DNA of 64,000 bases from Chromatiales bacterium (GTDB taxonomy: Bacteria > Pseudomonadota > Gammaproteobacteria > JAGRGH01). Positions 1 to 4,338 of this stretch are shown here, piece after piece (the stretch's first letter is position 1; the number at the start of each line of letters is the position of its first letter). The stretch is taken from contig JAGRGH010000030.1 in NCBI GenBank assembly GCA_020445605.1, positions 1 through 64,000 on the forward strand. The letters run 5' to 3'. The notes under the pieces were generated by a model, which was given only the letters and a program-made list of their open reading frames with translations, searched no databases and was not told the origin of the DNA. Position numbers and translations under genes: made by a program.

Positions 1-206
1 AGCACGATCTTGAGCAACACCCGCGGATCATAGGCCGGGCGGCCGCCGTCATCGTTGCGGTACCTTGCATCGAGCTGCGCAAGATCGAGCTCGTGGTCGA
101 CCAGCCAGGCCAGCGAATACTCGAAACTGCCCGGGAGAATCTGCCGCTCGAACGACACCGGGATCATCTTCATCTGCCCTTAGTCGTAATCCTTGTATCT
201 GGCCAT
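1..206 (-). pseudogene. IS1182-like transposase, N-terminal part, in-frame stop; runs off window
   Basis: On the minus strand the ATG at 206 opens with MARYKDYD, meets TAA at 182-180, and continues in the same frame as GQMKMIPVSFERQILPG and on to RPAYDPRVLLKIVL at the window edge. This matches the N-terminal domain (DUF772 type) of IS1182-family DDE transposases as I recall them. In that family a Tyr codon is expected where the TAA lies. Translation could restart at the ATG at 173. Only about 60 residues are visible, so the DDE catalytic part cannot be judged. It lies just beyond an attC site, so an IS has inserted at or near the end of an integron cassette. The family call is moderately sure; the stop codon is directly visible. 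Confidence 0.75.
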
Positions 207-271
207 TCACCCGATCATCGAATCGCTGATTTTTATGGCCTGATTTTACCAGTCCAGGGGTTTTCCGACAG

Positions 272-340
272 CCTCAACGCCCAGCTGAGGGGCGCTGAGG
301 TCGACAGACCGAAGCGTCACTCTCGAGCGGCTTGTTAGGG
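272..340 (-). repeat. attC site closing the NTPase cassette
   Basis: Read on the minus strand, the site runs from an R'' box CCCTAAC (340-334) to an R' box GTTGAGG (278-272). The inner L boxes are GCTCGAG (328-322) and CTCAGC (289-284). They pair as GCT/AGC and GAG/CTC and leave one unpaired C, the extrahelical base typical of folded attC bottom strands. The length of about 69 bp is normal. The stop codon of the last cassette gene lies inside R'', also usual for cassettes. The R' core deviates slightly from GTTRRRY and may have been altered by the adjacent IS. Confidence 0.75.
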
Positions 341-580
341 GCCGCTTACCAACTCAACCAACTTTATGAGCAAAAGACAGGTAGAAACGGCTAACGAGAA
401 GATAGAAACGGCAAGTACACGAAGATTTTGTTTTCTGCCATATACGATATCGACGTATTTCCCCGTATCCTCTATACCTCGTATTTTTTCAATGTGCGTA
501 GTGCAAAACATTGATGTGCGTATACCCTTATTAAGGATGCACCTTCTGTTCTGAAAGAAATAGCAAGTATTACATCGCAA
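335..580 (-). CDS. small Cys-rich protein with C-terminal membrane anchor, cassette gene 3
   Basis: 81 residues if started at the TTG at 580, which overlaps the end of the previous gene and has AGGGAG about nine bases upstream. The N-terminus holds four cysteines (C3, C6, C14, C26), CxxC style, suggesting a metal-binding or disulfide knuckle. Residues about 54-77 are a hydrophobic stretch fit for one membrane helix near the C-terminus. The stop codon TAA falls inside the R'' box of the attC, as expected for a genuine cassette-borne gene. I recognise no family. The overlap with the 113-residue gene and shared AT-rich composition suggest that the three genes act together, perhaps with this one as the membrane component. 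Confidence 0.6.
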   Translation of the reverse strand: MRCNTCYFFQNRRCILNKGIRTSMFCTTHIEKIRGIEDTGKYVDIVYGRKQNLRVLAVSIFSLAVSTCLLLIKLVELVSGP

Positions 581-911
581 TTTTCAAGTTCTCCCTATTG
601 AGAAGGGTTCCGGTTGGAAAGCGCCTCATCCCAAGCTCGCTTAACCTCTCTTCAAGTTTATGCGTTGTAATCTTATAGCTTTCAGTTGATTTTCTCGGGT
701 TTTTATAAACAGGGAATATCGCCCTCAAAACCATCAAAAATTCTTCTTCAGTAACCGACGGATGCACGTCTTTGTAAAGAACGCGAAATAATTCAAACAG
801 CTTTTCGCCATCCCGAAAAGTACGTTGTCTCCCTTTCGGAATAAGACGCAGCCCCATGGCAGTTATATCAAAGATAATGCTTTTCGGTATTAACTCATCA
901 TCGATATTCAT
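570..911 (-). CDS. 113-residue protein of unknown function, cassette gene 2
   Basis: The start ATG overlaps the TGA of the NTPase gene as ATGA, with GGAGG six bases upstream, so translation is probably coupled. The product is charged and mostly helical by eye, without signal peptide, membrane segment or cysteine cluster. No family is recognised. The gene is AT-rich like the NTPase and unlike the GC-rich chromosome around it, which fits arrival as an integron cassette. Its size and coupling suggest a partner or regulator of the NTPase; that is inference from arrangement only. Confidence 0.65.
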   Translation of the reverse strand: MNIDDELIPKSIIFDITAMGLRLIPKGRQRTFRDGEKLFELFRVLYKDVHPSVTEEEFLMVLRAIFPVYKNPRKSTESYKITTHKLEERLSELGMRRFPTGTLLNRENLKIAM

Positions 912-2407
912 AGAAACCTCCGAATGCTTGGGCCTGGTTTTCCGAATTTGTCAGGATAACATTCCCATGATGGATCAAACTCAACCATCTCTAGGTATTT
1001 GTCGCCTTTCATTGTGATTTTGTATTCTGTTTCCAGCATTACGTGACGCGCGCCTTTCAGACTTTCGTTGCTGCGAATAGGCACTATCAGCCTATGAGTC
1101 CGATCTTCCATGACTGAAAGGGACCGTAATACGCTGTCTTTCACATGGCCATGCTGTTCCAATATTTTGATCGCTTCGTTATCGATGACTCCTACATACT
1201 TGACCATCTCAAGCACGTTGTAATGCAAAGAGCATTTATTGCCGTCTTTGCTAACGCTATACTTCTCATTCAAATTAAAAAGCCTGTAGTTCGACTGATC
1301 GCCGCCTTCGTCAATCGAAAATAATGACAATATTGCCTCTCGCGGGACTATGTACTTTGTTTCACCGTCCTCGATTCGAGTTTCTAGTTCTTTTGCATGA
1401 GTGAATATATACCTGAGAACAGCTTCAGCGATATCAAACACTTCTCGATTGTTCCCGTTTGTAATTTCCGTCATGAACGTTAGGAGCCTCCCGGTAAATG
1501 GAAACTCAAATCGGGCCAACTGCTCGAGATTTTTTATTCCATATTGTTTTCTCAATATGCGGCAAATTGCAGAGTCCCTTCTAAACAGGCGCTTGATGTA
1601 GGTGTGAAATGGGGCTTCCGCGCTTTCTTTAATTAACGGGGCCAGCCGTTTATAAAGTATCTTTCTTATCGCTAGTGGCCCGAGGTCAATTCTTTTTGTG
1701 TTTCTCACTATATCCCGATACAAGACATCATTCTCAGTTCTAATTTTGTACTCCAATAGAGGACGAACCGACAAGACAAACGAAATTTTCGGCGAAGCCA
1801 CTAAATTGTGAATCGCAAGCAAGAATTCGAGCCAAAAGTCATCAGCGTAATCCAGGTCATCAACAAGCAACAAAAGACACTTATGATTCTCGTTTGCATC
1901 GTATTCGCCAAAATGTTCAGATATTTTGATAAGGTTGTAGTCAATTGTGCCTGCTTCCTTGGGCTTTTCCATAGTGTTCAATGGAAATTTTACAGCGCTG
2001 AAATAGCCATCTATTTTGTCAATGAAGTTTATTAGTGCAGCGTCCCTACTTACGGAACCTTTCCGAAAATCTATAAATATTGGGTAAACGTATTTATGAA
2101 GCTCATGGTTTTCATTTAGAAAGATCTTGTATAAGAAAGAGCTCTTGCCTATCCCTGCCTCGCCGACTATTAAGTAGTTCCGCCCGGTCTTGCAAAACAC
2201 ATCCAATGATTCGCAAAACTGATCAGTTTCGTTTGATCGTCCGTAGAAAAGCTCTGCAAATACATCTTTGTCTAATTCCCGAAGCGCAATTAGATCGCTA
2301 AATATTGCGCTTCTGATGCACTCATTCCATGCAGTTAATTCAGCGTCTGTACATTCGCTCAAATGAGCCAATTTCGCCTCGTCTTCCACCAGCCGTTCCT
2401 CTTTCAT
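908..2407 (-). CDS. P-loop NTPase (STAND/ORC-like), cassette gene 1
   Basis: 499 residues. A Walker A motif GEAGIGKS is at residues 82-89 and a Walker B run LLLLVDDLD at about 178-186. FVLSVRPL at about 210-217 looks like a sensor-1 strand with a basic residue. The N-terminal 50-60 residues are acidic and helical. The C-terminal half may contain winged-helix segments, but I do not recognise an effector domain. No signal peptide or membrane helix is seen. The ATG at 2407 has an A/G-rich Shine-Dalgarno (AGGGGGG) that overlaps the attC core GTTAGGG, so insertion at that core places the RBS. The gene heads a three-gene overlapping unit within one integron cassette. Such NTPases often serve in phage defence or signalling, but nothing here proves that. 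Alternative: an AAA ATPase of another mobile-element function. Confidence 0.85.
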   Translation of the reverse strand: MKEERLVEDEAKLAHLSECTDAELTAWNECIRSAIFSDLIALRELDKDVFAELFYGRSNETDQFCESLDVFCKTGRNYLIVGEAGIGKSSFLYKIFLNENHELHKYVYPIFIDFRKGSVSRDAALINFIDKIDGYFSAVKFPLNTMEKPKEAGTIDYNLIKISEHFGEYDANENHKCLLLLVDDLDYADDFWLEFLLAIHNLVASPKISFVLSVRPLLEYKIRTENDVLYRDIVRNTKRIDLGPLAIRKILYKRLAPLIKESAEAPFHTYIKRLFRRDSAICRILRKQYGIKNLEQLARFEFPFTGRLLTFMTEITNGNNREVFDIAEAVLRYIFTHAKELETRIEDGETKYIVPREAILSLFSIDEGGDQSNYRLFNLNEKYSVSKDGNKCSLHYNVLEMVKYVGVIDNEAIKILEQHGHVKDSVLRSLSVMEDRTHRLIVPIRSNESLKGARHVMLETEYKITMKGDKYLEMVEFDPSWECYPDKFGKPGPSIRRFL

Positions 2408-2420
2408 GGTTTTTGTTCCC

Positions 2421-2493
2421 CCCTAACGATTGGAGCTAAATCGCATTGGCGTAGCAACGCGTAGCCAATGTCGGTTTGAGCGACTTGTTCGAT
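2421..2493 (-). repeat. attC site between cassette 1 and the NTPase cassette
   Basis: On the plus strand CCCTAAC (2421-2427, R' complement) and GTTCGAT (2487-2493, R'' complement) flank the arms GAGCTAAAT and GGTTTGAGC. On the minus strand GCTCAAA pairs with TTTAGC, leaving an extrahelical C, the attC hallmark. The centre is a perfect stem CATTGGC (2444-2450) / GCCAATG (2464-2470) closing a 13-base loop. Length about 73 bp. The GTTAGGG core is canonical, while R'' is degenerate, as is common. The 111-residue frame upstream ends in its L' box. Confidence 0.8.
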
Positions 2494-2771
2494 GCGAGGC
2501 GCCACCGGATAACCGCAATGAAATGCCTGGCTTTCCGCTGATGGCCTCGGCCTGCTGACACTTTATATCTGCTGTTCGGATTGTGTCGCGGTGCTGCGAC
2601 TGCGAGGGATTCTCTGCCGTGAGTCCTTAGGGTTATCCGGCTGAACGAGTTAGCCGTGTAACCCGTGCGGCTCACGGTAACATATGACCCCATCGCTCGC
2701 GGTCGGGCTTGTTCTTTTCCGACGTCAGCCATTTCGCTTGTGCTCGTAGTCCTTTGCTGCTCTTTAAACAT
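2436..2771 (-). CDS. doubtful 111-residue ORF of the integrase-proximal cassette
   Basis: An open frame begins at the ATG at 2771, preceded by a weak AAGG, and ends with TAG in the L' box of the downstream attC. Its last residues (NKSLKPT and following) are the peptide typically produced when a frame reads into an attC, so the C-terminus is site-derived rather than functional. The composition is intermediate, without signal peptide or recognised motif. A perfect 10-bp inverted repeat and a partial attC-like half-site lie inside it, which suggests a scar of older cassette rearrangement rather than a conserved gene. Confidence 0.3.
   Translation of the reverse strand: MFKEQQRTTSTSEMADVGKEQARPRAMGSYVTVSRTGYTANSFSRITLRTHGRESLAVAAPRHNPNSRYKVSAGRGHQRKARHFIAVIRWRLASNKSLKPTLATRCYANAI
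2505..2655. repeat. inverted repeat and attC-like half-site inside the proximal cassette
   Basis: CCGGATAACC (2505-2514) and GGTTATCCGG (2631-2640) are perfect 10-bp inverted copies. Next to the second copy, the minus strand reads GGCTAACTCGTTCAGCC (2655-2639), which resembles the R''-L'' half of an attC. No matching R' box is found at the other arm. It may be a long or decayed attC. Confidence 0.4.
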
Positions 2772-2802
2772 TGCCTTTTTCTATTGTTTTTTGCGGCTTA
2801 AT

Positions 2803-2865
2803 GCATCGAACAGGTGATTATGCAGCTGGCACAATATCGGCAATATTGTGCCGGCACAATATTGG
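2803..2865. promoter_or_regulatory. attI-like junction and repeated palindrome upstream of intI
   Basis: GGCACAATAT (2828-2837) and ATATTGTGCC (2843-2852) form a 10-bp hairpin or operator with a five-base centre. A third copy, GGCACAATATTGG, follows directly at 2853-2865. This lies about 70-100 bases before the intI start, where a repressor or the integrase itself could bind. On the minus strand TGTTCGATGC (2812-2803) carries a GTT core and is an inverted copy of the R'' area of the first attC (2486-2495), so it may mark the attI crossover. No LexA box (CTG-N10-CAG) was seen. Roles are inferred. Confidence 0.5.
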
Positions 2866-2931
2866 TAATATGCGGCCAAATGCACTATTCTTGTTCGTCA
2901 TTGGTGGCGTGGGCAGCATGGAGCGACCCAG

Positions 2932-4338
2932 ATGGACAAACGCAGTTCGGACGACCCTCGGGTCGAGCGGTTTTGGGATCAATATCATCAGGTGCTGTCG
3001 CGCTTTCGGGTCCCCGAAAAGGCCAGGCCCTGGTACCAACGACACGTCGAGGCGTTCAGGGCGGATCACCCCGGCGAGAGGTTGCACGCCCACACGCCAG
3101 AATCGGTTCAGCGCTGGCTTGAATCGCAAGGCCGGAACCCGGCATTGGAGGGCTGGCAGTTTCGGCAAAAGGCGGATGCCCTGCGACTGCTGTTCGCCCA
3201 CCATCTGCAATTTGAGTGGGCCAAGGCCTTCGACTGGGCGCGTTGGCTGGATGGATCGATGCCCCTGGAGCGGGATCACGCCACGGTGGCCCGAACCTAC
3301 GCTCAGATCGACGCGGCGGTCGCCAATGCTGACAACCTTCTGGACGCGCACCACCCGGGCGTGTACCGGAAATTTCTGTCCATCATGCGAATTGCGGGCT
3401 ACGCCGCCAACACCGAGAAAAGCTATCTGGGCTGGATCAATCGGTTTGTTCGCTTCCAACACAATCGCCTCCCTTCAAAATCCGGCGAACCGGAAGTAGC
3501 TGCCTTTCTAGAACATCTTGCGTTGCAACGCAAGGTATCCAGCGGCACCCAGAGCCAGGCGCTCAATGCCCTGGTGTTTCTGTATGTCAAGGTGATCGAG
3601 GAACCCCTGGGCCAGATCGGGCCCTACCAGCGGCCGAACAAGCCCAGGCGACTGCCCACCGTGCTGAGCCCCGGCGAAATCGAGGCGGTCTTTGCGGCAT
3701 TGAGTCCGCACAACAGCCTGATGGTCAAGCTGATGTACGGTACGGGTATGCGGGTGATGGAGTGTGTGCGTCTGCGAATTCTGGATGTCGATTTCGACTA
3801 TCGTCAGATCCTGGTCAGAGGCGCCAAGGGCAACAAGGACAGGTCCGTCCCACTGCCGCGCCTGTTGGAAGCGGGCTTGAGGAAACAGATGCAGTTGGTG
3901 CGTGAACAGCATAAAAAAGTTCTGGCGGCCGGGTTCGGCTCGGTGTTTCTTCCGGACGCGTTGGCAAGGAAGTTTCGCAATGCCGACAAGGAGTATCGCT
4001 GGCAGTACCTGTTTCCGGCGAGCCGGGTTGCACAGGACCCGAGGACGGGCGTGCCACGCCGTCACCATATTCACCAGACGGTGGTTCAGAAGTCCATCCG
4101 TCAGGCCGCGCGCAGGGCGGGGCTGACCAAGCGCGTCACCAGCCATACCCTGCGGCACTCCTTTGCCACGCACCTGCTGAAAAGCGGATCGGACATCCGA
4201 ACGGTGCAGAAACTGCTCGGTCACGCAGATGTGTCCACGACCATGATCTACACCCATGTCGCGGGGCTCGGTGGGCAGGCTGTCGCCAGCCCATTGGATC
4301 AACTGCGAGCCGGGTCGGCCGAGAGCAAGCAGTGCTGA
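2932..4338 (+). CDS. intI: integron integrase IntI with N-terminal extension
   Basis: A tyrosine recombinase of 468 residues that inserts and excises gene cassettes at attI and attC. Catalytic residues are visible: R274 (in GTGMRVMECVRLR), K near 299, H405 and R408 (HTLRH), H431 (LLGH) and nucleophile Y440 (TTMIYTH). The IntI-specific insert between the second and third boxes is present at about 343-363 (LARKFRNADKEYRWQYLFPA), which separates it from XerC/D. The core-binding domain starts near residue 145. About 140 residues precede it, whereas typical IntI proteins total about 320-340. Start ATG 2932 has GGAG eight bases upstream. It is transcribed away from the cassettes, the normal integron layout. 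All catalytic residues are intact, so it is probably active. Confidence 0.93.
   Translation: MDKRSSDDPRVERFWDQYHQVLSRFRVPEKARPWYQRHVEAFRADHPGERLHAHTPESVQRWLESQGRNPALEGWQFRQKADALRLLFAHHLQFEWAKAFDWARWLDGSMPLERDHATVARTYAQIDAAVANADNLLDAHHPGVYRKFLSIMRIAGYAANTEKSYLGWINRFVRFQHNRLPSKSGEPEVAAFLEHLALQRKVSSGTQSQALNALVFLYVKVIEEPLGQIGPYQRPNKPRRLPTVLSPGEIEAVFAALSPHNSLMVKLMYGTGMRVMECVRLRILDVDFDYRQILVRGAKGNKDRSVPLPRLLEAGLRKQMQLVREQHKKVLAAGFGSVFLPDALARKFRNADKEYRWQYLFPASRVAQDPRTGVPRRHHIHQTVVQKSIRQAARRAGLTKRVTSHTLRHSFATHLLKSGSDIRTVQKLLGHADVSTTMIYTHVAGLGGQAVASPLDQLRAGSAESKQC

Follow-up and report, generated by a model that had tools for sequence, protein, structure and literature searches.

A three-gene integron cassette encoding an ORC/STAND-like NTPase, a winged-helix-like protein and an exchangeable third component: a candidate conflict system

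A contig of a Chromatiales bacterium (Gammaproteobacteria; JAGRGH010000030.1 of GenBank assembly GCA_020445605.1) carries near its start an integron in which one cassette holds three minus-strand genes. Our window is the stretch from position 1 to 64,000 of this contig. The three genes, hereafter the trio, encode a P-loop nucleoside triphosphatase (NTPase) of 499 residues (908-2407), a 113-residue winged-helix-like protein (570-911) and an 81-residue Cys-rich protein with a single C-terminal hydrophobic, putatively transmembrane stretch (335-580; the Cys/TM protein). We favour, if only slightly, the view that this cassette is a self-contained three-component conflict system, probably anti-phage and possibly abortive, in which the NTPase would be the sensor or switch, the 113-residue protein the adaptor and the Cys/TM protein the membrane effector. 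Comparison of four loci shows a constant pair of NTPase and 113-residue-type genes, followed by a Cys/TM gene in three of them and by a gene for a predicted metallo-β-lactamase (MBL)-fold protein in the fourth. Since the MBL gene stands in place of the Cys/TM gene, the third gene is exchangeable on a constant two-gene core.

Results

Relatives of the trio

The sequence-only reading of this DNA had taken the trio for one mobile unit and proposed to look for it in other integrons or islands. When 369 genomes of the class were searched with the window NTPase, the trio came to light in a second gammaproteobacterial integron (genome G306), where both small genes lie behind the NTPase gene in the same order as in the window. 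A scan of a genome contig collection with a two-row profile confirmed 2 of 584 pattern matches, namely a complete trio in a Tannerellaceae metagenome-assembled genome (MAG) and a related locus in a Binatia MAG. With these, there are four full-length NTPase members (G000, G306, G370 and G371). The window and G306 proteins share 32% identity for the NTPase, 23% for the 113-residue protein in the four-row alignment (21% pairwise) and 43% for the Cys/TM protein. In G306, the trio is flanked on both sides by long, almost perfect attC hairpins (z below -10; score reached by 0 of 2000 shuffles) and the array has its own integrase; the two integrons carrying the trio differ in attC type. The idea of a single mobile unit is borne out. 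Gene order and overlapping reading frames are the same in three genomes of two phyla.

Of the two outcomes that would have spoken against the first reading, solitary NTPase homologues with an unrelated known function and small frames not conserved in relatives, neither was encountered. Among the four full-length NTPases found (the one of the window included), a gene of the 113-residue type adjoins all four and a Cys/TM gene accompanies three. Leave-one-out hidden Markov models (HMMs), run on the open frames of 64 loci, recovered every member: four of four NTPases (E 1.3e-93, 3.2e-117, 5.5e-92 and 3.6e-115; best other NTPase 4.9e-8), four of four 113-residue-type proteins (E 4.5e-6, 1e-8, 2e-4 and 4.8e-4; best non-member 0.16) and three of three Cys/TM proteins (E 1.9e-18, 3.8e-18 and 2.1e-11; best non-member 1.3).

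Whole-genome searches covered 1732 genomes in total, some drawn repeatedly. The window NTPase had one match among 56 genomes (its own) and three among 369 (its own, G306 and a weak one in G360). Profile searches gave matches in 1 of 4 genomes (G306), 4 of 4 named genomes, 26 of 375, 19 of 247 and 5 of 398; with the limit tightened to 1e-8, the counts were 1 of 228, 1 of 1 and 0 of 48. In all these searches, full-length matches came from G000, G306, G370 and G371 only. The 48 further genomes in these counts (1 + 25 + 18 + 4) match weakly (E 3.2e-6 to 9.7e-4), mostly round the P-loop. Members have scores of 722 bits or more, the frames of these genomes 28 bits or less, and no homologue of the 113-residue or Cys/TM protein was found in their flanks, which extend no further than about 1.5 kb (best non-member E 0.23); we set them aside as other NTPases. 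The window NTPase found no relative in viral contigs, phages or the first genome contig scan, and among plasmids it had one partial match (residues 53-164, E 0.1). Plasmids likewise gave no blastn match to positions 1-3000, none at E 0.01 to the NTPases of loci L002, L008 and L009, and none at E 1 to the Cys/TM proteins of L002 and L008; no relative was confirmed in viral contigs with alignments A4, A6 and A5. That few members were found is due in part to the collection scan, which demanded exact short peptide patterns.

At the Tannerellaceae and Binatia copies, an inverted-repeat search detected no clear attC pair; this is a weak test, which also found no inverted repeat in either attC site of the window. 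Upstream of the Tannerellaceae NTPase gene lie nested imperfect palindromes built of TTGAC/GTCAA units (L008 4543-4707), possibly an array of binding sites.

The exchangeable third gene

In the Binatia MAG, the NTPase gene is followed by a gene for a 213-residue protein, the first part of which matches the 113-residue family, and then by one for a 327-residue MBL-fold protein (PF00753, E 3.6e-11). The nearest PADLOC models of the latter are the defence-associated MBLs RTasMBL (E 7e-11) and LmuA (E 2.9e-9), and the neighbour of the locus is a divergent gene that encodes a SNaCT13-domain NACHT protein. An MBL-fold gene in third place fits the suggestion of the sequence-only reading that the third gene is an effector.

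Among 63 plasmid records matching the Binatia MBL, three close relatives were found (Hymenobacter, Burkholderia and Pseudanabaena; 37-41% identity). In all three plasmid operons, the MBL gene is preceded by a gene for an adaptor of 226-228 residues, one of which is annotated as 'response regulator', and this in turn by a gene annotated either as sensor histidine kinase or as ATP-binding protein. The first proteins of the Hymenobacter and Burkholderia operons, the two that were scanned, each matched two GHKL ATPase-domain models, and a methylase gene lies further upstream on these same two plasmids. The Binatia 213-residue protein has an extra C-terminal domain (residues 130-206) that is homologous to the end of the plasmid adaptors. 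This domain matches the Pseudanabaena adaptor (tblastn 5e-4, blastp 2e-11) and the Hymenobacter adaptor (blastp 2e-5), and an HMM comparison gave E 1.4e-4. That the MBL and its adaptor domain are joined to the NTPase/winged-helix pair in Binatia, and to a GHKL protein elsewhere, is our strongest evidence, from a single locus, that the first two genes of the trio would form the trigger and the third the output. The plasmid operons (L087 883-6017, L088 830-5999 and L089 1061-5837) are possibly a separate conflict system. The Pseudanabaena MBL is annotated as two pieces around an IS982 transposase gene.

The NTPase and its partners

The Walker A (residues 82-89) and Walker B (about 178-186) motifs noticed in the sequence-only reading are present, and their key residues G82, G85, G87, K88, D183 and D184 are invariant in the four aligned homologues. 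The Pfam family AAA_16 is matched at E 2.5e-8, barely over its cut-off; the window and Binatia NTPases lie just over this cut-off and the other two under it. In a structure model computed from the four-row alignment, the predicted P-loop core matches the folds of ORC/Cdc6, CED-4, plant NLR proteins, MalT, RdrA and Avs3, and the match to the single domain 7cte_B has Z 14.0 with a root-mean-square deviation (rmsd) of 3.3 over 168 aligned residues. Matches to ORC/Cdc6 on the one hand and to NLR, MalT, RdrA and Avs3 on the other are as expected for the ORC/STAND side of AAA+. The secondary structure of residues 394-443 is compatible with a winged helix; full-length ORC alignments mostly have an rmsd above 15. 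With its Walker motifs and the matching fold of the model, the protein has the features of a STAND/AAA+ (ORC-like) core, and we assign it to ORC/STAND-type AAA+ with low to moderate confidence. Against PDB sequences, the NTPase profile gave 105 matches at E up to 1, the best 60 of which are mostly GTPases and other P-loop proteins; among the matches listed, the best is 8bns, an 'AAA ATPase' (E 3.1e-4, 42 residues). The window NTPase alone had six matches, all at E above 0.3.

The best AlphaFold2 model of the 113-residue protein runs helix, strand, helix, helix, strand, strand, as in a winged helix, and its structure matches are mainly winged-helix proteins. With low to moderate confidence, the protein would be a winged helix; it is a probable nucleic-acid binder. 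In our impression, a conserved stretch before and in the wing may resemble RFX-type domains. The profile of this protein had no match among PDB sequences and that of the Cys/TM protein had one, at E 1.4. In short, the libraries searched give the NTPase a generic name only and the two small proteins no name.

In the 81-residue protein, hydropathy over 19 residues reaches 2.24 at 55-73. All three Cys/TM proteins have such a C-terminal hydrophobic stretch with basic residues ahead of it, and two of the three share the pattern C-x2-C-x7-C-x(9-11)-C. By the positive-inside rule, the stretch would be a tail anchor that leaves the Cys-containing part in the cytoplasm.

Architecture of the cassette

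The genes are tightly packed: the NTPase gene starts no more than 20 bases from the right attC core and the 81-residue gene stops inside the left one. The first reading had joined all three genes by ATGA-type overlaps. This holds at the NTPase/113-residue junction (4 nt, ATGA), whereas the second junction is an overlap of 11 nt (570-580) and the 81-residue gene begins with TTG. A ribosome-binding site for each gene was seen rightly, as Shine-Dalgarno-like stretches (GGGGGG, GGAGG and GGGAG) lie 5' of the three starts, and so was the AT-richness of the trio relative to its host (41.6% G+C in 335-2407, 65.8% in 4339-64000). When 280-2425 was randomised 300 times by a Markov-1 model, no open stretch exceeded 287 residues (mean 110). 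Given this and the homologues of all three products elsewhere, the three frames are beyond chance. An own promoter of the cassette was considered and rejected: promoter-like sites in 250-3000 are not in excess (4 against 4.7 expected), and the sole one on the minus strand falls within the NTPase gene.

The integron platform

The first 4 kb or so of the contig after an insertion sequence (IS) are an integron that reads, from right to left, integrase, attI-like region, first cassette, attC, trio, attC. As originally described, an attC site flanks the three minus-strand genes at either end. The two sites have the same orientation, with attI and an integron integrase adjoining, as in an integron cassette. 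The attC calls are based on core motifs, on position beside the integrase and on arm complementarity. The right attC (2421-2493, minus strand) belongs to the preceding cassette, the trio cassette beginning in its core at about 2426; its arm pairing (2422-2492) is reached by 1 of 2000 shuffles. For the left attC (273-340, minus strand; arms 273-338), the figure is 4 of 2000, and the inner core (334-340) contains the stop codon of the third gene. Arm pairing therefore supports both sites; the left one, however, is interrupted by the IS, the end of which supplies its outer core, and an intact attC as left boundary had to be rejected. Single-strand folding is unremarkable for both 2415-2505 (z -1.7 on the plus and +0.4 on the minus strand) and 258-345 (z -1.2 and -2.4). 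A strict core-motif scan gave 0 matches in the whole window and so missed both sites.

The integrase IntI (2932-4338, plus strand) matches Pfam Phage_integrase (E 1.1e-39), and its best PDB match is IntI4 of 2a3v (E 4.5e-90, residues 151-458). It has about 145 extra N-terminal residues, the Pfam N-terminal domain starting at residue 146 of 468 and the PDB match at 151. The attI-like region with its palindromic repeat (2806-2912, minus strand) is called attI by position and by reading, with no model. Copies of most of it, 86-90% identical, occur on contigs C14, C52 and C50 of the same genome; they adjoin a GTTAG core at two places and a GTTATAC core at the third (L076, L077 and L078, near 1501-1600). 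The first cassette (2493-2811, minus strand) is about 0.3 kb long and has no recognised gene; a Pfam search with the 111-residue frame at 2436-2771 gave nothing, even with E values of up to 10 allowed.

The IS right end with the N-terminus of its transposase (1-279, minus strand; by reading) interrupts the left attC in its outer core. As the contig starts inside the IS, the remainder of the array is not assembled. Similar copies of this end are found on contigs C63, C52 and C21 of the same genome, and a bare terminal repeat on C31; three of the four matches stop at query position 279 or 280 and the one on C63 extends to 294. The terminal repeat ends in ...CCTCAACG, thereby giving an attC-like core (window 1-279; L068 1-126; L066 1-180). 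An attC borders the IS in the window and, judged by reading, also on contig C52; the IS may target attC sites. Contig C52, where the same IS is present, also encodes a 478-residue SEFIR/TIR-domain protein (L077 41-1477; PF08357, E 2.9e-16), by reading between the attI-like copy and attC; this unit is possibly another defence cassette.

Discussion

Proposed mechanism

In the mechanism that we propose, the NTPase would be of the ORC/STAND type and would use ATP to work as a sensor or an oligomerisation switch, set off by a phage product or an abnormal nucleic acid. It would act through the winged-helix protein, which would bridge to the effector. In the window, the effector would be tail-anchored, with its Cys cluster, which perhaps binds zinc, in the cytoplasm; release or clustering of this protein would damage the membrane and stop the cell. 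For their expression, the genes would rely on the integron platform or on read-through.

Units of an NTPase and a swappable effector are typical of conflict systems, a subject on which passages of Kaur et al. (2020, PMC7159879) bear. Integrons, according to the passages of PMC12409362 considered here, hold many defence cassettes, about 10% of cassettes in a study cited there. From these two points, defence seems the likeliest purpose of the trio. Circumstantial antiviral pointers may also be seen in the NACHT/SNaCT13 neighbour of the Binatia locus, the PADLOC likeness of its MBL and the SEFIR/TIR gene on C52. It is possible to go further, to a proposal that we consider tentative and somewhat short of an even chance: a modular immune-like family, absent from the libraries searched and small enough to fit one integron cassette, in which a fixed trigger, made up of an ORC/NLR-type NTPase and a 'socket' of the winged-helix kind, would take different killers. 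Three of the four members would have a tail-anchored membrane protein with a Cys cluster as killer, and the remaining one an MBL hydrolase with the adaptor domain of the GHKL operons.

Relation to known systems

Like the trio, the anti-phage systems of Darracq et al. (2025) and Kieffer et al. (2025), as described in passages of PMC12409362 and cited in PMC13092281, are borne by integron cassettes, and defence is reported to be a common role of cassettes; within those descriptions, the trio was not matched to any described system. Passages of the literature, including those of PMC12409362, PMC7159879, PMC13092281, PMC12839542 and PMC10853773, do not describe the trio; the two 2025 papers themselves and all supplements are outside this set.

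The predicted P-loop fold of the NTPase is similar to those of RdrA of RADAR (8hr8_A; Z 13.0, rmsd 4.4, 213 aligned), the plant NLR protein ZAR1 (6j6i_C; Z 13.0, rmsd 3.6, 167 aligned) and Avs3 (8dgc_A; Z 12.6, rmsd 3.8, 199 aligned). Unlike in STAND/NLR proteins and RdrA, the trio NTPase has 499 residues, and a gene of its own encodes the proposed effector, with the winged-helix-like gene in between. According to passages of PMC12839542, BrxC of BREX is an ATPase of the ORC/Cdc6 clade with a C-terminal winged helix. The trio NTPase would belong to the same broad clade and possibly also has a winged helix after the ATPase part; unlike in BREX, however, its products match no BREX model in PADLOC and the three-gene unit has no PglZ/PglX-type gene. 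Nor did the three products match a RADAR model (RdrA, RdrB) in PADLOC, where matches up to E 10 were considered, and we rejected by sequence the possibility that the trio is RADAR or BREX. MBL-effector systems (RTasMBL of DRT, LmuA of Lamassu and Avs1a) have MBLs that the one in the Binatia member resembles, and the plasmid operons share the C-terminal adaptor domain with that member. The trio of the window differs from both in that its third gene encodes a membrane protein and its first a P-loop NTPase, not a GHKL protein. PHROGs gave nothing useful for six proteins. By sequence, the trio matches none of the PADLOC systems, RADAR and BREX included, along its length; as a kind, it fits conflict systems built of sensor, adaptor and effector.

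Observations that weigh against this reading, and other explanations

Several observations speak against a defence role or against the assignments behind it. The number of full-length members is small, effector exchange is known from one locus only, and the Burkholderia adaptor has no significant blastp match to the Binatia 213-residue protein. The Tannerellaceae copy is surrounded by apparent housekeeping genes, by reading, and no known defence gene was recognised beside the two integron copies, the neighbours in G306 being judged by reading with no library scan. The search against defence profiles that the sequence-only reading had recommended produced no PADLOC match of useful strength: none for the 113- and 81-residue proteins and, for the NTPase, PDC-S60 at best (E 7e-6), over residues 67-138 only. 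With no profile matched over most of a protein, the trio is not an anti-phage system listed in PADLOC. In the three Cys/TM proteins, the hydrophobic stretch is reached by 33, 24 and 9 of 1000 shuffles, which makes it moderately unlikely from composition. Moreover, the Tannerellaceae protein has the first Cys of its CxxC replaced, so that zinc binding by the Cys cluster is uncertain.

The NTPase model is weak (mean predicted local distance difference test score, pLDDT, 61.3; predicted template modelling score 0.43), with ten-residue blocks in 121-240 at 67-85 and the P-loop block 81-90 at 61. Its top Foldseek matches are ORC/Cdc6 replication proteins (2qby_A has Z 15.6 over 261 aligned residues, but at an rmsd of 16.2). 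Of the 997 chains aligned, as many as 668 are at Z 8 or above, and the fold search therefore gives class, not function. These matches, a weak NCBIfam similarity of the G306 NTPase to orc1/cdc6 (E 6.5e-4) and the winged-helix-like partner would also suit a DNA-maintenance or replication/segregation module, in which an ORC/Cdc6-like ATPase and a winged-helix DNA-binding partner act on the DNA of their own element, with a membrane anchor. We regard such a module as very unlikely. Immune NTPases belong to the same fold class, the replacement of the membrane protein by an MBL hydrolase with a common adaptor domain makes no obvious sense in it, and integron cassettes are not known to self-replicate.

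For the 113-residue protein, the best model has a mean pLDDT of 69.5 and the other four 43-56. Foldseek gave no match to it at E 0.001 or better, and all its structure matches are under Z 8, the nearest being Fur/Zur and PadR-type folds at Z 7.6 or less. Likeness to these folds, together with MalT among the fold matches of the NTPase (8bob_C; Z 13.0, rmsd 3.2, 172 aligned), could point to a sensory or transcription-regulation operon with a metabolic or stress role, made up of an ATPase co-regulator, a winged-helix transcription factor and a membrane protein. However, no common target gene is seen travelling with the trio, and a small unit that spreads to distant genomes and can change its third gene is rather what one expects of conflict systems, which leaves regulation an improbable explanation.

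Toxin-antitoxin cassettes are common in integron arrays, and the trio might be a related addiction cassette that stabilises the array, with the Cys/TM protein as membrane toxin, the winged helix as autorepressor or antitoxin and the NTPase in a regulatory role. A repressor would be in keeping with small overlapping genes and a winged helix, and by reading a VapBC-like pair occupies the adjoining cassette of the G306 array (L002 639-1040 and 1037-1231, minus strand). Against this stand the NTPase, which is the largest part and comes first in the operon, and the MBL-fold third gene of the Binatia locus, which does not look like a toxin that one fixed partner holds in check. In addition, the trio is present where no integron was recognised (Tannerellaceae, by the weak attC test), and none of the three products matched a toxin or antitoxin family in the family libraries. 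We therefore think a toxin-antitoxin role unlikely.

Implications

The three-gene cassette of about 2 kb is transferable and testable as a single piece. If it is a conflict system as we propose, a compact mobile trigger-plus-effector system would be added to the integron-borne repertoire. The window and Binatia loci would then be a natural pair, in which the same kind of trigger works with two effectors, and experiments on them could show how a winged-helix adaptor links NTPase sensing to killing.

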